DNA of 45,001 nucleotides from Archaeoglobaceae archaeon (lineage in GTDB: Archaea; Halobacteriota; Archaeoglobi; Archaeoglobales; Archaeoglobaceae). Shown one piece after another: positions 30,359 to 39,223 of the stretch. Each line of letters opens with the position of its first letter. The stretch's first letter is position 1. Position numbers and translations under genes: made by a program. The notes under the pieces are model-generated. The model ran no database searches and had not been told where the DNA came from. It saw only the letters and a program-made list of their open reading frames with translations. Location: NCBI GenBank assembly GCA_026988525.1, contig JALSLC010000027.1:1-45001 (forward strand), written 5' to 3'.

Positions 30359-30491
30359 CTCTTTATTCTGGTTCCAATCCATAAATTTAAATGATCGCTT
30401 TTCGGCGTTACCACCCCAGCTACTTGTTCCAGCGTGCGACCACTATCGGATTACCGTGTCGGGTTTTATTCTGCTCAGGGGTGCATATTCT

Positions 30492-31709
30492 ATGAGCGAC
30501 TTCTATCCGAGCCAGAGAGTATCCAAGGCTCTCAAGCGTTTCAAGCAAAGGCATCCTGAGAACTACGATCTCATCGAAACTTTCGCCATGGACCTGCTGG
30601 CTCAAGGAATTTCTGAGCTGAGAGTTACAGGTTATTTAACATATATCTCCAACATCCTGAAGATTGTGAACAAGGATTTCAGAAAGTACACGAAAGATGA
30701 CGTTCGAAAGGTCATCGCCCACTACCAGACAAGAGCAAACCGCGGTGAAATAAGCCCGAATACCGTTTTTGAGGTCAGGAAGACCTTAAAACGCTTCTTT
30801 AAATGGCTCGGGAAGGAAGAACTCGTTAACTGGTTTGTAGCTGGCAAATGCGAATCCAATCTTTCTCCGCAGGATCTGATAACTCATGAAGAGTTTGAGG
30901 CCATGCTGAAAGCATGCCAGAATTCCCGTGATAGAGCTATGCTGAGCTTGCTGTACGAGACCGGAGCAAGAATAGGGGAAATTGCAGCTATGAGGATAAA
31001 AGACGTAATTTTTGATGACTACGGTGCAGTTATTTGGCTTCCGAGGTCAAAAACACAGAGAAGAAAGTTGAGAGTGGTGTTTTCGACGAAATATCTTGCC
31101 GAATGGTTGTCGGATCATCCCTCAGCGAACGATCCCGAAGCGCCGCTCTGGATTAAGCTCAGTCACAAGAATTACCTGAAACCTCTGGAATACAAAGACA
31201 TACAGCTGCAGCTGAAAAAGATAGCGAAGAGGGCTGGAATAAAGAAGAGAATCTACGCACACCTCTTCAGACACACCCGAGCGACGAAATTACTGCAGCA
31301 GGTGTCAGAAGTAGTAGGAGCAAAATACATGGGCTGGGTCCCCGGAACGAAGATGGTCAAGGTGTACATACATCTGGCCGACCAAGATGTTGAGCGGGCA
31401 ATTCTGGAGATGTATGGGATAAAGCCCGCTGAGGAGGATGGCGATATCAAGGTGCTGCAGTGTCCGCGCTGCTCGTTTATCAATCCGGGAAACGCAAAGT
31501 TCTGCTCTCGCTGCGGATTGCCGCTGACCGAAGACGCTGTCAGAGAGATCGAACGGTGGGAGGAAAAGAAAGCAAAGCTGCTCGAAGCCATGACCAGGCC
31601 GGAAATACTTCAGCTGATTATGAGCTTGCGCGACGAAATAGAGAAGCTTAAGAGGCTGGTCGAAGAAAGGAAAACGAGGGGTCGAGATGGAGATACTCTG
31701 GGGCGATGA
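30492..31709 (+). CDS. Tyrosine recombinase/integrase with C-terminal zinc ribbon
   Basis: About 405 residues. An N-terminal SAM-like core-binding domain (about 1-125) is followed by the catalytic domain: R in ETGARIGEIAAMRIKDV, K in RSKTQRRKLRVV, HLFRHTRATKLL (HxxR), GWVPGTKMVKVYIHL with the tyrosine nucleophile in VYIHL. A zinc ribbon (CPRCSFINPGNAKFCSRCG) and a coiled-coil tail follow. It cuts and joins DNA at attachment sites. ATG 30492 has AGGGGTG 8 nt upstream; an in-frame start at 30456 has none. The end overlaps the Cdc6-like gene by 23 nt. Confidence 0.92.
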   Translation: MSDFYPSQRVSKALKRFKQRHPENYDLIETFAMDLLAQGISELRVTGYLTYISNILKIVNKDFRKYTKDDVRKVIAHYQTRANRGEISPNTVFEVRKTLKRFFKWLGKEELVNWFVAGKCESNLSPQDLITHEEFEAMLKACQNSRDRAMLSLLYETGARIGEIAAMRIKDVIFDDYGAVIWLPRSKTQRRKLRVVFSTKYLAEWLSDHPSANDPEAPLWIKLSHKNYLKPLEYKDIQLQLKKIAKRAGIKKRIYAHLFRHTRATKLLQQVSEVVGAKYMGWVPGTKMVKVYIHLADQDVERAILEMYGIKPAEEDGDIKVLQCPRCSFINPGNAKFCSRCGLPLTEDAVREIERWEEKKAKLLEAMTRPEILQLIMSLRDEIEKLKRLVEERKTRGRDGDTLGR

Positions 31710-32780
31710 GACCCTCTTCAGGAATGAGGAAGTCTTCGATCCCGAATACCTCCCACAAGCCATTCTTCATAGGGATACGCAGATTAACGACCTCGCCCTA
31801 TCGCTGAGACCGGCTTTAAACGGTATCTCTCCCGGTCACATCCTTTGTGTGGGCCCACCTTCGACTGGTAAGACTACTGTGGTGAAGTACGTGCTTGAGA
31901 AGCTTGAGGAGTACGATGTTGCTACCGTATATCTCAGATGCCCGATCCTCCGGACGTCTTACAACGTATTCTCTAAAATTTTCGAGGAGATAGGCGGAAA
32001 GGTGCCGCCTCAGAGAGGAGTGCCGCTGTTCAAGCTCCTGAGTGAGATCGGAGATCAGCTGGGCCAACGTGTTCTCATCGTTGCCCTTGACGATATTAAC
32101 TTTTCCTACCGGAAAACGTGCTGAACGAGGTTCTGATGACACTGGTGAAAAGTGCTGAGTTTAAGGTCGGAGTAATAGCGATATCCTCAAGCAAGAGTTT
32201 CATCGCCAGACTTGAACCGTATCTCGGTTCCATCTTGCATTTCCACGAAGTTGCCTTTCCGCTGTACACGAGAGAGGAGATCAAGGAAATACTGCACTGG
32301 AGGGTGCAGCACGGCTTTTATCCCGGCGTGATGACTGAGGAGGCTTTTGAGATGATCGTGGATCTAGTTGCAAGGAACGGAGACATTCGTTATGGATTGT
32401 ACCTGTTACGTCGAGCTGGAATAACTGCAGAAAAGAGGGCAAGCAGAAAGATAGAAGTTGAGGATGTAATCGCGGCGGGAGAAGGTGAAGAGATAACGCT
32501 GCTCGCAAAGAGTCTTTCAGCTCTCAACAGCGATGAGAAAGAGGCCTTAAAGATAATTTACTCGCTCGATGAGGAGGAAATCACGACCGGCGACATATAT
32601 GGCATAATGAAGGCCGAAGTCGGATTGTACTACGAGAGGTTCTACGAGATCATCAACAAGCTTGAGAGATTGAGGTTCATCGATCTCGTATTCGGCAGAA
32701 AGGGTAAGGGTAGGACGAGGTACATAGTGAGGCGGTACGATCCCAAAGTTGTGCTTGAAGCTATCAGGAACTACGGGTAA
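31687..32780 (+). pseudogene. Orc1/Cdc6-like AAA+ ATPase, split by a frameshift
   Basis: Two frames form one protein. 31687-32124 holds the N-terminal AAA+ half (Walker A GPPSTGKTT, Walker B VLIVALDDIN), and 32118-32780 holds the lid and a winged-helix C-terminal domain (EEITTGDIYGIM, YERFYEIINKLERLRFIDLV). The break is at the T run 32101-32104: one extra T, or two fewer, would join DDIN to FLPENVLNEVLM. The intact protein would have about 364 residues, close to Orc1/Cdc6 family ATPases. These bind origins and load helicase on archaeal replicons, so this is probably the initiator of the integrated element. It may be a true pseudogene, a homopolymer sequencing error or, less likely, a programmed frameshift. 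Confidence 0.82.
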
Positions 32781-32967: not shown

Positions 32968-33963
32968 TCAAGTTCTTATTCTATCTCTCTCTTCCTCTCG
33001 TATTCGTTCTATCATAATTTTTAGGTATTCGTTAAAATCCTTGTGAATTATAAATTCACCACTTTCTTCATTAATATCCTCTATCAATTTTGCGTGACCA
33101 TCTTTGATTCCAGTTATATTGACATAAAATCTATTCTTTGCTAATTGTGATCCTAGAATTTTCATCAAAACTTCTAACTCTAAATCAAGCAAACTAAATG
33201 TATCAACTTCAACGAGCTCAGTTTTATCTAGTTCTTTATATTTCTGAATTATTTTTGACAAGATTTTAAATACAAGAAGTACTACTCTAGGTAATTTTCC
33301 TTCTTCTTCGACGTACTTCTGCAACATCTTTTCAGAAACACCTAGAATAAAAATTGATTGAACAGCAGAAGTGTACAGTTTCCAGTTTACAGATGCAAAA
33401 TTATCACCATATATTTTCTTAAGATCTAACAATGGTTGTAGTATTTTTCCTGGATAAATTCTTCTGTCAGTAGTAATATCTATTATCTCCATTTCATATA
33501 GATCTCTTATAATTCTTTCTCTACTTGTGTGGGTGTGTATCAATGATGTGATTTCATCTATTTCAATACCATTAAGATTTACGTCGTCGTCTAATATGCA
33601 ATACCAGACTACTTCAGAAACTACATTCTTATACGCAGCAAATAGTGGATAATCTGCTAGTATCTCACAAATTTTTTCTGCAGCTTTTAGTGCCCATTCC
33701 TCTGGAGTTCTGCGACTTTTCAATGAATTTATTAAGTGATTTTTTAATTCTTTTATTTGAAAAAGAGAATATTGGCAATTTTCGCAAAGATCATGCGAAT
33801 ACGTAGGTAAATTGCAAAGTGTGCATTTTTTAACGATCTTTCCTTTTACGGACTGATATTTACTTTTTTCTTCACTTTTACCAGTGTTTTCGATAAATAC
33901 AATGTTTTTGGTTTTATCCTCCTTAATCTCAGTATTTTTTACACTTTCATAATTTTTTTCCAT
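32968..33963 (-). CDS. Zinc-ribbon plus winged-helix protein, last gene of the SMC-like operon, 331 aa
   Basis: I do not recognise a named family. An N-terminal disordered stretch rich in K, E and S (1-45) leads to a zinc ribbon (CTLCNLPTYSHDLCENC). Then comes a helical region with a winged-helix-like part (IEIDEITSLIHTHTSRERIIRDLYEMEIIDITTDRRIYPG) and a C-terminal alpha/beta part. Its layout repeats that of the first gene of the operon (37164-38048), so the two are probably paralogues. ATG 33963 follows GAGAGGTG; the frame extends to GTG 33972 inside that site. It follows the SMC-like gene by 12 nt. A DNA-binding adaptor for the ATPase is a reasonable guess. Confidence 0.75.
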   Translation of the reverse strand: MEKNYESVKNTEIKEDKTKNIVFIENTGKSEEKSKYQSVKGKIVKKCTLCNLPTYSHDLCENCQYSLFQIKELKNHLINSLKSRRTPEEWALKAAEKICEILADYPLFAAYKNVVSEVVWYCILDDDVNLNGIEIDEITSLIHTHTSRERIIRDLYEMEIIDITTDRRIYPGKILQPLLDLKKIYGDNFASVNWKLYTSAVQSIFILGVSEKMLQKYVEEEGKLPRVVLLVFKILSKIIQKYKELDKTELVEVDTFSLLDLELEVLMKILGSQLAKNRFYVNITGIKDGHAKLIEDINEESGEFIIHKDFNEYLKIMIERIREEERDRIRT

Positions 33964-33975
33964 TAATAGCACCTC

Positions 33976-35940
33976 TCACTCTACGACTCTAACTTTCAAG
34001 TCGCTATCTTCGAAAGTCGTTTTCGTCAGCAGTACTGTAACGTTTTCTTGTTTTGCATATTCTAGTAGCACTTTTAATATCTCCTCAGTTCTATACTCAT
34101 CAAAGTATTCATACATATTATCTATTACGATGTAATTGATGCCTTCTCTGTAAACTTTATTGAGTGCGAGCATAAGAACTAAAGCTACAGACACTCTTTC
34201 AGACTCACTGAGTGCGTGCGGTTGTATTACTTTAATTTCTCCCTCCGGAGAAACATATTGAACATTCAAGATGTAATTCCTGTCAAGATAAATTCTCTTG
34301 AATTCGCTAAAGCCAATTCTTTTAAGAACATCCTGAACCATATTGTTGAATTGTTTTACAGCCTCTCTTCTTATTTTTTCAGCCATATCAAGAGAATACT
34401 TTTTAGCACTATTTATTCCATTAAGAGCTTGCTCTATTAAGTTAATAGCATTGTCTAGTTCCAACGATAGCCCATATATATTTACATATCCAGCAGTAGT
34501 GTATTCGGATATCTTCCTCCTCAATAATTGCTGTTTTTCTTCAAGAAGCTTTGCAATTTTGTCTATTTCTTCGATTAATTCTGGGTTTTCTTTTCTTAGG
34601 ATGTCGTTGATCTCCTTGATCTTTTTAGATACTTCGTCAAGCTCGACTTTTTTATTTTTCAAATCTGTTAAAAGATTGCTAACTTCTGACTTAAGGTTAT
34701 CTATTTTTGTTTGAATATAACCGCGCTGTCCTCTAATATCGTGTAGCCTCTTTTTAATCTCATCTTGCTCCCTTTCCAAACTCTTTCTGTAATTTTCTGC
34801 ATCCTCTTTTAATTTTGCGAGCTTCCTTAATTCATCTTCAATTTTAGAAATATTCTCTTTAATTGCTTTTAAGTGAATTTCAAGCCTCTTTTTTGTTATA
34901 TTTCCCGTTTCACATAGTGGACATTTTGTCTCCCCCTCACTTACGTTGTCTAGAGCGATGTAATATAAATCTGCTAATGCTTGCAATCGTAATCTTTGAT
35001 CTTGTAAAAGCCTTATCTTTTTGTCGAACTCAGAAAAATCAAAAGGTTTAGCTAGTTCAGATTTTATAATTTTTTCTTTATTCTTAAGTTTTTCTTCTTC
35101 TTCTTGTAATTCTTTTATTTTATTTTCGAAGTGTACAAGTTCATTTTCTTTATTATTTATATGTTTTTCATATTCTTGTATTTGTTTTTGCAATTTTCTT
35201 TTATCATCTTCTAATTTAGTTAATTGACTTTTGAGCTCTGAAATCTTTTGCTTCTTTTGTTTACTGTCAGCTTTAATCATATTTATTAGTTCATCTTTTT
35301 TCTTTTCTAGCCTCTCAATTTCTTTTTCCAATTGCTGTATTTCTTTTTTTAGGCTTGGAATCAGAGCCTTTTTCCTTTTAAGCTCGTTCAGCTTCTGAAA
35401 CAAAGTTGAGTAGTACTCTTGTAGTAATTCACTAGCTCTCTCATACTTGTCAGCCTTCGCTGATAACTTAGTTATGTAGTTTTTGAAAATTGACTCGTTT
35501 TTCATTTCATTTGGGCTGCTGATAGCCCTATATATCCACGAATTTGGTGTCAGAACACCAATTAACAAGAAATTAGAGTTAGCACGCTCATCTGGCTCGA
35601 TTCTACCGCTTTTCTCAATTATTACCCTTCTCTCGACGTTTCCTTCCTTCAATTTAACTTCAGCTTGCATAGCATTTGCGTGGACAATTCCCGCTCTGTG
35701 TCCTCCCCTCTCCGGCAGTATGCCTAGATTAATTGCTTCCAATCGCCAGATATTACTATATCCTTCACGCAAGACTCTATGATCTATACCAAGTACAGCT
35801 ACAAGAGCTTTGACTACACTACTTTTTCCTTTTGCATTAGCCCCTTCTAATATATTTAGAGCACTCTTAGAAAATGTAAATGTTCTTCCTCCTTCAAGGC
35901 CACCAACATTGGAAATTTCAAGGATTGCATATTCATTCAT
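33976..35940 (-). CDS. SMC/Rad50-like ATPase, archaea-specific SMC-related (ASRP) type, 654 aa
   Basis: N-terminal ATPase half: ILEISNVGGLEGG and Walker A GANAKGKSS (residues 33-41). Long coiled coils run from about 155-300 and 345-475, broken by a zinc-hook-like CPLC at 340-343. The C-terminal half has the ABC signature LSESER (577-582) and Walker B YIVIDN (603-608), where the usual catalytic E is N. The NVGG start and LSESER signature resemble the archaea-specific SMC-related proteins of the Sph/coalescin kind, not true Rad50 (no mre11 neighbour) or SMC (half the length). It probably dimerises through the hook and holds DNA. ATG 35940 overlaps the small upstream gene by ATGA. Confidence 0.85.
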   Translation of the reverse strand: MNEYAILEISNVGGLEGGRTFTFSKSALNILEGANAKGKSSVVKALVAVLGIDHRVLREGYSNIWRLEAINLGILPERGGHRAGIVHANAMQAEVKLKEGNVERRVIIEKSGRIEPDERANSNFLLIGVLTPNSWIYRAISSPNEMKNESIFKNYITKLSAKADKYERASELLQEYYSTLFQKLNELKRKKALIPSLKKEIQQLEKEIERLEKKKDELINMIKADSKQKKQKISELKSQLTKLEDDKRKLQKQIQEYEKHINNKENELVHFENKIKELQEEEEKLKNKEKIIKSELAKPFDFSEFDKKIRLLQDQRLRLQALADLYYIALDNVSEGETKCPLCETGNITKKRLEIHLKAIKENISKIEDELRKLAKLKEDAENYRKSLEREQDEIKKRLHDIRGQRGYIQTKIDNLKSEVSNLLTDLKNKKVELDEVSKKIKEINDILRKENPELIEEIDKIAKLLEEKQQLLRRKISEYTTAGYVNIYGLSLELDNAINLIEQALNGINSAKKYSLDMAEKIRREAVKQFNNMVQDVLKRIGFSEFKRIYLDRNYILNVQYVSPEGEIKVIQPHALSESERVSVALVLMLALNKVYREGINYIVIDNMYEYFDEYRTEEILKVLLEYAKQENVTVLLTKTTFEDSDLKVRVVE

Positions 35941-36071
35941 AACTCTACACCTCTTTCTAGTAGCTTCTTAATCTCTTCCTCGACCTCTTTCCTCATTTGT
36001 GCGTCGTTGATATCTCCTTTTACAAACTTATCAACTAACTCTTTTAAAGTATCCACAAACTCATTCTTCAT
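35937..36071 (-). CDS. 44-residue peptide gene inside the SMC-like operon
   Basis: A short frame, MKNEFVDTLKELVDKFVKG followed by DINDAQMRKEVEEEIKKLLERGVEL, which would form one or two amphipathic helices. Three observations favour it being real: its ATG overlaps the upstream gene by 11 nt with GGAGGTGAT just before it, its stop overlaps the SMC-like start as ATGA, and it fills what would otherwise be the only gap in a tightly packed operon. It resembles small kleisin-like or regulatory helices only in a general way. No function can be assigned. Confidence 0.75.
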   Translation of the reverse strand: MKNEFVDTLKELVDKFVKGDINDAQMRKEVEEEIKKLLERGVEL

Positions 36072-36459
36072 CTAAAATCACCTCCTTTATTAATCTTTTC
36101 GAAACTAAAACATAATAGTCCCCAAACCATTCGGGTTTTCCACTTTTCTTCTTTTCTTCCAGTATTTCAAACAACTTTCTGTAAAATTCAGGAGTTGCAT
36201 TTCTTATTAGATATTTATACTCCCCTCCTTTTGCTTTCCCAGCTCTACCTTTTATCTTGGTATGAGAAACATATCTCGTAAGTGCATATTCTAGTGGATC
36301 AATTTCGTCAACGTAGTCCTTTAATTTCTTGCATAGAGTATCTTTCAGCCATATCCTAGCCTCATTCTGAACGTAATCTTTGAGTGTTTTAAAATATATT
36401 CCTACAATTAAAATCCCATCCTTTAAGCTCTCGTCAAACCATTCTGGCGTTTCACTCAT
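36061..36459 (-). CDS. Unknown basic protein of the SMC-like operon, 132 aa
   Basis: I do not recognise this family. The protein starts MSETPEWFDESLKDGILIVGIYFKTLKDYV and has two lysine-rich stretches, SHTKIKGRAGKAKGGEYKYLI in the middle and ILEEKKKSGKPEWFGDYYVLVSKRLI near the end; a PEWF motif occurs in both halves. It is basic and could contact DNA. Start: ATG 36459, 6 nt after GGAGGGAG and overlapping the AAA+ gene by 8 nt; the frame reaches 36492, but that part lies fully within the AAA+ gene. It is coupled to the AAA+ gene before it and to the 44-residue gene after it. Confidence 0.75.
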   Translation of the reverse strand: MSETPEWFDESLKDGILIVGIYFKTLKDYVQNEARIWLKDTLCKKLKDYVDEIDPLEYALTRYVSHTKIKGRAGKAKGGEYKYLIRNATPEFYRKLFEILEEKKKSGKPEWFGDYYVLVSKRLIKEVILDEE

Positions 36460-37177
36460 GCACTTCTCCCTCCGAGATGTAATTGAAAACAAAAAGTGCT
36501 ATCTCGTACATGACTCCTCTGAGATCTCTTATCTTCATTGAATTTATCTTCTCCCGAATTTTTGACGCAATCTCTCTCTTTACACTTACAGGAATCTCAA
36601 TTTTATCTAATGTTCTATCTAAGAACTTGTATAACTCTTCCTTTGGCACTCCTGGAATCTCGATTAGATATAGCCTCGACTTGAGAGCTTCGTCCACAAG
36701 ATCTATTCTATTCGTAGTGGAAAGGACAATACACTTACTTGGATCAAGAAAATCGAGAGCATGGAAAAGAACGGAGTTTATGGAGTAATGCCATTCTTTA
36801 GCTATGTCAGCTCCTCTACTCATTAGCAGACTCTCAATATCATCAAAGATAATTATTCTTTTCTCGTAGTCTGACATTTCAAATACATTCTGTAGCTTTT
36901 TCTCTGCCTCCCCCCATTTTGGCGATGCTATGTCAGCTCCATCAATGAATAAAATTTTGACATTCGGATAAGCCTCCGCTACTTTTTTGCTCACTTGTTT
37001 TACTATTTCACTTTTTCCTGTTCCTGGAACTCCATAAAGTAAGAATCCTTTAAACGGTAGAAAACTATACTCCCCGCTAAATAGCCATGTAATTACGTTG
37101 TAAATCTTTTTAAATACTTTCTTTTGGTAATCAAGAAGCTCAACCTCTTTTATAGTAAATGGATCAAGCTCTGTCAA
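36452..37177 (-). CDS. Minimal AAA+ ATPase of the SMC-like operon, 241 aa
   Basis: A single AAA+ module and almost nothing else: Walker A GVPGTGKS (49-56), KWGEAEKKLQNVFEMS (the region after the pore loop typical of classic AAA proteins), Walker B IIIFDDIES (108-116, DD instead of DE), sensor 1 STTNR (153-157), arginine finger region ALKSRLY (164-170) and a small helical lid with LRGVMYEIA. It probably remodels or loads the SMC-like ATPase or its partners. The start is TTG 37177, which overlaps the first gene by 14 nt and follows GAGAGGGTGAG. Alternative internal starts would remove conserved lead residues. Confidence 0.85.
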   Translation of the reverse strand: MTELDPFTIKEVELLDYQKKVFKKIYNVITWLFSGEYSFLPFKGFLLYGVPGTGKSEIVKQVSKKVAEAYPNVKILFIDGADIASPKWGEAEKKLQNVFEMSDYEKRIIIFDDIESLLMSRGADIAKEWHYSINSVLFHALDFLDPSKCIVLSTTNRIDLVDEALKSRLYLIEIPGVPKEELYKFLDRTLDKIEIPVSVKREIASKIREKINSMKIRDLRGVMYEIALFVFNYISEGEVHE

Positions 37178-38048
37178 CTTCTCTCACCCTCTCGCCATAT
37201 ATTCTCTCCAAAGTCCTTATCATCTCTTCTCCGATAATAAATCTAACATTATCTCTCCCAATAGGTTGTATGTTTTCAATGTATTGTTGCAGTGAATGTG
37301 GACTTGTTGCTTTTAACGCAGCAATATAGTTTGAAATAGTTGTTGGAGAGAGATTTCTTTTTGTAAAGAATTTTCTTATTTCCTCTTCATTAAACTCATT
37401 TTTGACTGAACTACCTCTAACCCTTTCAGTCCAGAGAAACATTGTAGCTACCCATGGTGCTTTTGGAGTATGTGATCCAAATTGACGAAGAATTTCGTCT
37501 TGTGAGTTGGCGTTTGCTAATACATACATTTCGTGCAAGATTGCATACATTGTTAAAACGGCAGCAACACGTATTTTTGCTTGTTCCTGTGTTCTATACG
37601 GCCTATACGCTTCTTCTATAAACCTCTTAAGGATTATATTTGGTTTTATTATTCTCTTTATTTTATCAGGAGATTCAATTTTGACAATTCCTGCATTTTC
37701 CATAGATTGCAGTATCTTTAAGATGTTTCTGGATGATTTTGTTCGTCTCCAAAGTTCATCATAATCAATCTCGCTTTTACCTTTAACAGCGAACTCTTCC
37801 AAGAGCTCTTTGACGATCGCTGAATAAACAGAAAGTTTAGGGTTTTTCTGAACTATGAAATATGTATTTTTCAACAATTCAAAAATATCTGTACTTTCTA
37901 TCGACTTTGAGTTATCAGAAAATGTATTTCTTGCTTCTTCATATAGAATTTTAATAGCTTCTGAATGTACCCTGCAATCTTCACATATATAATTATCTAC
38001 TGCTCTTTTCCTACTACTACTTACCATCCCACACTTTATACATTTCAT
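37164..38048 (-). CDS. Zinc-ribbon plus winged-helix protein, first gene of the SMC-like operon, 294 aa
   Basis: It opens with a zinc ribbon (CIKCGMVSSSRKRAVDNYICEDC), then a helical region and a winged helix (EIDYDELWRRTKSSRNILKILQSMENAGIVKIESPDK), followed by a helical C-terminal half that contains FTKRNLSPTTISNYIAALKATSP, which looks like a second helix-turn-helix. It resembles the last operon gene in order of parts (zinc ribbon, then 'YxxIVxELL', then winged helix, then a lysine/proline segment). It may sense DNA or control the operon. ATG 38048 follows GGGGTG, and a TATA box lies upstream on the minus strand near 38080-38093. Confidence 0.75.
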   Translation of the reverse strand: MKCIKCGMVSSSRKRAVDNYICEDCRVHSEAIKILYEEARNTFSDNSKSIESTDIFELLKNTYFIVQKNPKLSVYSAIVKELLEEFAVKGKSEIDYDELWRRTKSSRNILKILQSMENAGIVKIESPDKIKRIIKPNIILKRFIEEAYRPYRTQEQAKIRVAAVLTMYAILHEMYVLANANSQDEILRQFGSHTPKAPWVATMFLWTERVRGSSVKNEFNEEEIRKFFTKRNLSPTTISNYIAALKATSPHSLQQYIENIQPIGRDNVRFIIGEEMIRTLERIYGERVREVDRA

Positions 38049-38077: not shown

Positions 38078-38149
38078 TATTACTCTATATAAATTTTTTC
38101 TTTCCTTGAATCAAGGAAAAAATTTTAACAATGTTGCCCAAATACAACT
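38078..38149. promoter_or_regulatory. Divergent promoter region with a 9-bp-arm palindrome
   Basis: Between the minus-strand SMC-like operon and the plus-strand PAPS-reductase gene lies TTTCCTTGA-A-TCAAGGAAA (38101-38119), a perfect inverted repeat with 9-bp arms around one base. On the minus strand ATTTATATAG (about 38084-38093) is the TATA box for the operon. On the plus strand AAATTTTAAC (about 38120-38129) may serve the reductase gene, whose ATG 38150 has no ribosome site. A dimer bound to the palindrome could regulate both genes at once. Confidence 0.65.
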
Positions 38150-39223
38150 ATGCTTCTTAAAGAAAAGGAGATCGAGGCTTTGTATTTTTTAAGACAATTT
38201 CCAAGATCAAAAGTAGCTGTTAGCTTTTCTGGTGGTAAAGATAGCTTGGTTGCATTACATCTCGCATACAGAGCAGGAATACGAAGAGCTGTATTTAGTG
38301 ATACTACAATTGAGTCCCAAAAAGTAATTGAGTTTGTGAAAGAAGTTGGAACACTATTTGGGATCAGGATTGATATTGTCAGGCCAAGAAAATCTTTCTG
38401 GGAGTTAATACCTTTTTTAGGGATACCCTCTGTTCACAACAGATGGTGTTGTCCAACTATAAAGTTTCAACAGCTGAATGAGTATGCAAAAAAGTATGGA
38501 ATTAAATATTACATTACTGGACTTAGAAAAGATGAAAGTTTATTTAGAAAAGAATACGAAAAAATAGGAACCAATCCAATGCTTCCCTACATTATTCAAT
38601 TGAATCCAATAATCGACTGGAGTGAAAAAGAAGTATGGGAATATATCAAAAAATACGAGCTTCCTGTACCTCCAGGATATAAAAATGGATTGTTGAGAAA
38701 TGGTTGTGTCATTTGTCCATATAAATCTCCAAAAGAGCTTGAAAAAGTCAAAAAACTTGAACCAGAGATATGGAAAAAGTTTGAAGATTTCCTTAATCTC
38801 TATGCACATGTCTTTGGAATACCAAACAAGGAAGAATTTGTTAGAAGCGGATGGAGATCTTGGAGACCACCAACAAGGCGAAAGGTTGTTGGAAAAATAA
38901 AAATAATAAATAACAAAAATAAGATAGAGCTAACTAATGGGCTTGAAAAAAGAGATTTTAAGCTTTTAAAAATCATTAATAAAGAAAAGCTAAATGATCT
39001 CAAAAAAATAAAAATTTTGATAGAAAAAGAATTGAATTGCATTGGATGCGGAGCGTGTCTATCATTATGTCCTGCAGATGCGTTACATATCAATGAAATG
39101 GGTGTAATTGATGTAGATATAAAGAAATGTACACATTGTTATGAGTGTTTGAATTCGTCGAAATTGAGAGGTGGGTGCGTCGGACGAAATTATGGGTTAG
39201 AAATTTTTGTTGTAGAGTATTAA
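38150..39223 (+). CDS. PAPS-reductase-family protein fused to a ferredoxin domain, 357 aa
   Basis: The N-terminal adenine-nucleotide alpha hydrolase domain has the PP-loop SFSGGKDS (25-32), then SDTTIES, CCPTIKFQQL (paired cysteines near 104-105), GLRKDES and a CVICPYK pair typical of archaeal PAPS-reductase-like proteins. The C-terminal ferredoxin has C297, C300, C303, C307 and a second set C327, C330, C333 with C343. Such proteins activate a substrate with ATP and act on sulfur, using internal electrons; the exact substrate is unknown. It is not a standard assimilatory PAPS reductase, because neighbouring sulfate-activation genes are absent here. It is divergent from the SMC-like operon and shares its palindrome. 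Confidence 0.85.
   Translation: MLLKEKEIEALYFLRQFPRSKVAVSFSGGKDSLVALHLAYRAGIRRAVFSDTTIESQKVIEFVKEVGTLFGIRIDIVRPRKSFWELIPFLGIPSVHNRWCCPTIKFQQLNEYAKKYGIKYYITGLRKDESLFRKEYEKIGTNPMLPYIIQLNPIIDWSEKEVWEYIKKYELPVPPGYKNGLLRNGCVICPYKSPKELEKVKKLEPEIWKKFEDFLNLYAHVFGIPNKEEFVRSGWRSWRPPTRRKVVGKIKIINNKNKIELTNGLEKRDFKLLKIINKEKLNDLKKIKILIEKELNCIGCGACLSLCPADALHINEMGVIDVDIKKCTHCYECLNSSKLRGGCVGRNYGLEIFVVEY

Follow-up and report, generated by a model that had tools for sequence, protein, structure and literature searches.

The window analysed here is a 45,001-nucleotide stretch of an Archaeoglobaceae archaeon (GCA_026988525.1, contig JALSLC010000027.1, positions 1 to 45,001). It carries a tightly packed minus-strand operon of six genes, here named A to F, together with a divergent plus-strand gene, G, and a palindrome in the gap between A and G:

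37164..38048, minus strand: A, 294 aa, N-terminal CxxC..CxxC zinc ribbon, winged helix, second winged-helix-like domain (domains from a predicted model) and a charged RE-rich tail; paralogue of F
36452..37177, minus strand: B, 241 aa, small CDC48/p97-like AAA ATPase with Walker B DDIES and the family signature WHxSxN..FHxLD
36061..36459, minus strand: C, 132 aa from ATG (143 aa from a TTG start, extending to 36492), predicted ferredoxin-like (beta-alpha-beta-beta-alpha-beta) protein of unknown role
35937..36071, minus strand: D, 44-residue peptide, found only in the Archaeoglobaceae-like loci
33976..35940, minus strand: E, 654 aa, ASRP (archaea-specific SMC-related) ABC ATPase with Walker A GANAKGKS, CPLC zinc hook, signature LSESER and Walker B VIDN (catalytic Glu replaced by Asn)
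32968..33972, minus strand (or from ATG 33963): F, 334 aa, zinc-ribbon/winged-helix paralogue of A
38101..38119: perfect 19-bp palindrome TTTCCTTGAATCAAGGAAA, putative operator
38150..39223, plus strand: G, PAPS_reduct PP-loop domain (SGGKDS, WCC..K, GC..CP) with a C-terminal dicluster ferredoxin

The initial annotation had described the six minus-strand genes, with overlaps of 4 to 14 nt or a 12-nt gap, and this description is confirmed. The overlaps are 14, 8, 11 and 4 nt, and the 12-nt gap results when F starts at the ATG at 33963. Zinc-ribbon Cys pairs are present in A and F, and A has a winged helix in a confident AlphaFold model (AF2 pLDDT 88), so that the earlier assignment as zinc-ribbon/winged-helix holds. 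The same model shows a helical linker followed by the second winged-helix-like domain; fold searches gave MarR-like matches over the winged helix only and no global fold match for A. A and F are paralogues of each other (hhalign 99.2%). The model of C (pLDDT 86) matches the generic ferredoxin-like or S6-like fold. To ask whether the ORFs are real genes, we compared them with a relative (G016) and found all six under purifying selection (dN/dS A 0.07, B 0.03, C 0.07, D 0.24, E 0.07 and F 0.15), showing that even the 44-residue peptide is a real gene. What the initial annotation missed were G and the palindrome, the loss of the catalytic glutamate of E in G-linked copies, and the paralogy of A and F.

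We next searched relatives with the operon and its neighbours by tblastn, which showed that G travels with the operon; the operon is one half of a divergent seven-gene unit. In a locus of the same family (L017), the order is F-E-D-C-B-A|G. In a relative from another family of the phylum (L018) and in Hydrothermarchaeum (L060), it is A-B-C-E-F-G, and in a Lokiarchaeon (L067) G-B-C-E-F, with the C position held by a 334-aa protein. In 2 Thermoplasmata (L059 and L061), a degenerate G, lacking the WCC cysteines and the ferredoxin, lies divergent to A. D is present in L017 and L058. Overall, G is next to the operon in 8 of 10 clade loci with both flanks, in 3 arrangements (divergent, downstream and upstream). 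By contrast, 2 Chloroflexota-labelled loci of the clade (L066 and L069) have B, E and F but no G. Among 388 genomes of the phylum, a close G orthologue (260 bits or more) occurs in 3, exactly those that carry the operon in the form seen in the window and its clade (type I); the next best match scores 142 bits. Conservation of gene order had been named beforehand as a test of the unit, and the order is indeed conserved in Archaeoglobaceae, Thermoplasmata, Hydrothermarchaeota, Lokiarchaeota and a complete-genome relative (L017, L018 and L058 to L062).

The 101-bp gap between A and G holds the perfect palindrome TTTCCTTGAATCAAGGAAA, which occurs only once in the whole genome at up to 3 mismatches. 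Its core, CCTTGANTCAAGG, is at the same place in all 5 divergent loci, across 2 phyla, exact in 4 and with one mismatch in L058, and 0 of 300 shuffles of each region did as well. The core is absent from the upstream regions of the other arrangements scanned. The Thermoplasmata A and B proteins are only about 25% and 47% identical to those of the window. We infer autoregulation by a conserved component, with A or F as the candidates.

To obtain more information on the wider family, we scanned a collection of 84,980 genomes with the B profile, which gave 29 loci. Most carry an ASRP 2 genes downstream of B with a small protein in between, and B has an invariant W-H...F-H signature. In the phylum, 7 of 393 genomes have B of this family (over 130 bits), 6 of them adjacent to an ASRP. 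In 349 Thermoproteota genomes, only the query genome has B, while 17 others have full-length ClsN-like ASRPs. B accompanies ASRPs on several branches of the family, but not coalescins (ClsN) or Sphs, although the names ClsN-like and Sph-like are given here by phylum and clade and not by matching the named proteins. In a tree of ASRPs only, without an outgroup, the B-linked members do not form one clade: one clade holds the window and the other type-I loci, a second holds most short operons, and the pair L074/L075 is sister to the ClsN clade (84/90). The ClsN-like group is a single 100/100 clade that does not include the window protein. The B-E pairing is therefore old or repeatedly assembled, with the direction being an inference. 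Homology of C between type I and type II operons is not supported (probability under 1%), and the match of A to its counterpart A' is only weak (23%). In L053 (4170-4424) and L078 (397-651), an 84-aa histone-fold-like gene, judged by eye, overlaps the start of an A'-B-C'-E operon. L069, on a 139-kb contig, and L066 carry the B-E-F operon on Chloroflexota-labelled contigs, with DnaA- and Obg-like genes (by eye), which is evidence that ASRPs do occur in bacteria, a point left open in PMC9389158 for lack of long contigs.

The active site of E differs between G-linked and other ASRPs. All 9 G-linked E proteins, including that of L080 (Nanoarchaeota) on a separate branch, have lost the Walker-B glutamate (VIDN, DD, DG or DA), whereas the 12 other B-linked or related ASRPs and 17 ClsN-like ones, i.e., all 29 non-G, non-Sph proteins compared, keep DE. 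However, only 2 to 3 contrasts are phylogenetically independent, all in the same direction, and since some non-G contigs are short, a more distant G could be unseen. If causal, the loss fits a clamp that binds but barely hydrolyses ATP and depends on B for turnover. Sph-like ASRPs (L118, L121, L122, L124, L125, L126 and L129) have the Walker A lysine changed to arginine (NATNRTS) and DS instead of DE in Walker B, and so may not be normal ATPases.

The distribution of the operon is patchy, which together with a deletion scar, ParA- and Orc1-like genes on the L017 contig and an integrase beside L066 speaks for mobility. E is absent from all 5 congeners searched apart from a 37-residue remnant in one of them (G005). 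There, a deletion scar beside tRNA-Ala (L021, 8740-9171) leaves the last 50 residues of G 3 bp from residues 39-81 of E, with everything between gone. In the window, synteny with genome G004 ends at the 3' end of tRNA-Cys (30359) and synteny with genome G001 stops 39 bp after G, but a search for an att-site duplication of tRNA-Cys around the island found none. The L017 contig carries 2 ParA-like genes plus Orc1-like and toxin-antitoxin-like genes (judged by eye), L066 has an integrase next door and L061 a transposase. A XerC/D-type recombinase and an Orc1/Cdc6 gene lie beside the operon in the window (30456-32780, 97 bp after tRNA-Cys). We considered this pair as part of the system but rejected it, since it recurs as a separate two-gene module without the operon (G000, contig C14, 698-2956, L163; G005, contig C9, L164); the window copy has its Orc1 split by a frameshift while the second copy is intact. 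Searches of plasmid and phage collections returned no close B. However, an IMG/VR contig with terminase- and portal-like genes (L086, 9827-10804) encodes the C-terminal half of B with a Cys/His-rich stretch in place of the Walker A region, followed by a full C'-like protein, possibly a decoy or an acquired inhibitor of the system.

What could the system do? Known phosphorothioation systems combine a PAPS-reductase-like sulfurtransferase with an ATPase that scans DNA: DndC with the ABC ATPase DndD, SspD with the Orc/Cdc6-clade AAA+ protein SspC, and BrxP in BREX-4, whose PAPS reductase also carries a ferredoxin-like region (PMC10853773; PMC12839542, on which the BREX-4 statement rests rather than on the BREX-4 phosphorothioate paper, PMC12914056). 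The best defence-library match of G is BrxP, with 149-182 bits for type-I proteins with a ferredoxin and 273 bits for L080. As a control, we scored methanogen PRK13795-type proteins, present in many genomes and presumably housekeeping, with the same profile and obtained 121-178 bits. The BrxP similarity is therefore not specific, and we rejected it as proof of phosphorothioation. Two of the 6 methanogen proteins tested are fused to DndA/SspA-like desulfurases, supporting sulfur transfer as the activity of the wider family, and relatives of G in the phylum (L168, L171, L173, L175 and L176) are fused to a cysteine-desulfurase-like domain, giving a self-contained sulfur-transfer enzyme of a function unknown to us. 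The cluster itself encodes no cysteine desulfurase, while 3 Aminotran_5 proteins above cut-off are present elsewhere in the genome. Nuclease or restriction-like genes lie near L058 (McrB-like AAA_5 protein, HNH), L062 (Nmad3-NucS_C) and L080. In L080 (13055-17251), an ASRP, a BrxP-like G, a NucS_C-like nuclease and a BrxC/D-like ATPase lie in a row, a hybrid between this system and BREX/Ssp-type systems.

Our best reading, which remains tentative (probability roughly 0.4), is a mobile, ASRP-based DNA sulfur-modification or defence system that works like Dnd, Ssp and BREX-4 but is not a member of them. What the comparisons establish is that A-B-C-(D)-E-F and G are conserved together across archaeal phyla and that, in the subclade with divergent A and G, they share a conserved palindrome. 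The remainder is inferred, including the clamp and loader roles and the modification chemistry, for which there is no physical or chemical evidence. In this view, E would form an ATP-locked SMC-like DNA clamp with slow or absent hydrolysis, owing to the replaced glutamate, and B would supply the ATP-driven step that loads, resets or removes E. A and F would position the complex on DNA, with one of them probably repressing the unit through the palindrome. G would take sulfur from a housekeeping cysteine desulfurase and transfer it, via its PP-loop and Fe-S centres, to DNA held by the clamp (phosphorothioate or a similar mark), which would protect or label the host or mobile element against foreign DNA. 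Against this reading stand the non-specific BrxP similarity, the weak DndC and SspD scores, the degenerate G in Thermoplasmata, the 2 clade loci without G, the few independent contrasts behind the glutamate correlation, and the absence of DndE, DndB, SspB, PglZ or a restriction gene from the window cluster. A further-reaching version, which we consider unlikely but which the data allow, is that a DNA-sulfur system unrelated in its ATPases to Dnd, Ssp and BREX-4 is built on an ASRP locked in its ATP-bound clamp form and recycled by a dedicated AAA+ ATPase; the chromosome-folding protein coalescin would then be a derivative of this mobile two-ATPase family that lost its AAA+ partner.

The strongest alternative, although less likely, is a two-ATPase DNA-sensing defence system with Lamassu- or Wadjet-like logic, in which E and B sense foreign DNA and G supplies a redox or PP-loop effector or regulatory function rather than DNA modification. 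E also resembles LmuB (79 bits) and PbeC, many B-E operons show no G nearby (L053, L054, L071, L073, L074 and L075), the distribution is patchy, some loci have defence-type neighbours, and the viral B fragment without its Walker A region could be a decoy. However, no nuclease or toxic effector is encoded in the operon, the LmuB match is mostly coiled coil and ABC fold, and G is closely tied to one clade, with which it shares the putative operator.

The initial annotation had proposed a self-contained DNA-handling machine (a loading ATPase, a loop or clamp ATPase and 2 DNA-binding adaptors) for segregation, compaction or defence, and this interpretation is only partly supported. The family of E, the status of the operon as a unit and the apparent lack of a described counterpart hold up. 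A chromosome-organising or segregation role, with B loading E onto chromatin as for coalescin or Sph, appears doubtful: E is in the same family as coalescin, L074/L075 is sister to the ClsN clade and a histone-like gene sits upstream in L053/L078, but the operon is absent from most close relatives, with a deletion scar in a congener, ClsN and Sph themselves lack B, the genome already has a full-length SMC and a Rad50-like protein, and G is left unexplained. A maintenance or partition cassette of an integrated plasmid, with G and the operon as accessory cargo, is the least likely, since despite the ParA-, Orc1- and toxin-antitoxin-like genes of L017 and the neighbouring Xer and Orc1, the Xer-Orc1 pair occurs without the operon, plasmid and phage collections hold no close B, and L060, L018 and L069 sit in long contigs of 139 kb to 2.2 Mb.

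Literature searches of open-access papers found none on an ASRP operon, on B, or on an ASRP with a PAPS reductase, although prior mention in the ABC-ATPase classification of Krishnan 2020 cannot be excluded. Like Dnd (DndABCDE), the locus combines a PAPS-reductase-like protein with a coiled-coil ABC ATPase and small DNA-binding proteins, and its sulfur donor may be in trans. However, G scores 31.8 bits against a cut-off of 290.4 for DndC (TIGR03183), E is an ASRP rather than DndD, and neither DndE (no match among the 6 proteins) nor DndB is present. With BREX type 4 and SspABCD, it shares an AAA+ ATPase partner and a PAPS reductase plus ferredoxin, as in BrxP and some SspD. It differs in that an SMC-like ATPase is central, PglZ, BrxL, BrxC and DUF4007/SspB were not found among the operon proteins, the SspD match of G is weak (60 bits), and there is no SspB or SspC match in the operon. 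With Lamassu and Wadjet (JetABCD), it shares an SMC/Rad50-like ATPase in a mobile operon, but it has extra AAA+ and PAPS-reductase genes, no LmuA or LmuC was found among the 6 proteins, and matches to Wadjet are limited to weak coiled-coil JetC-type hits and a 14.7-bit JetB hit of the 44-aa peptide, without JetA, JetB or JetD. By these comparisons, the system is not a member of Dnd, Ssp, BREX-4, Lamassu or Wadjet. If G modifies DNA, the locus is another route to DNA sulfuration.

The closest relatives are the known ASRPs (Sph and coalescin/ClsN; NCBIfam NF045487; PMC9389158). E matches this model over residues 11-635 with 288 bits, just under the curated cut-off of 300, which L018 (355 bits) and L074 (346 bits) pass, and it has the zinc hook and ABC motifs of the family. 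While ASRPs have been described as lone proteins, and no operon, AAA+ partner or G was found in that paper, here they have a recurrent AAA+ partner on several branches and, in one branch, a putative sulfur-transfer enzyme, a shared putative operator and loss of the catalytic glutamate. This makes the function of ASRPs directly testable, links an SMC-like clamp, as inferred, to DNA sulfur chemistry or defence, and raises the possibility that coalescin came from a mobile DNA-handling system.
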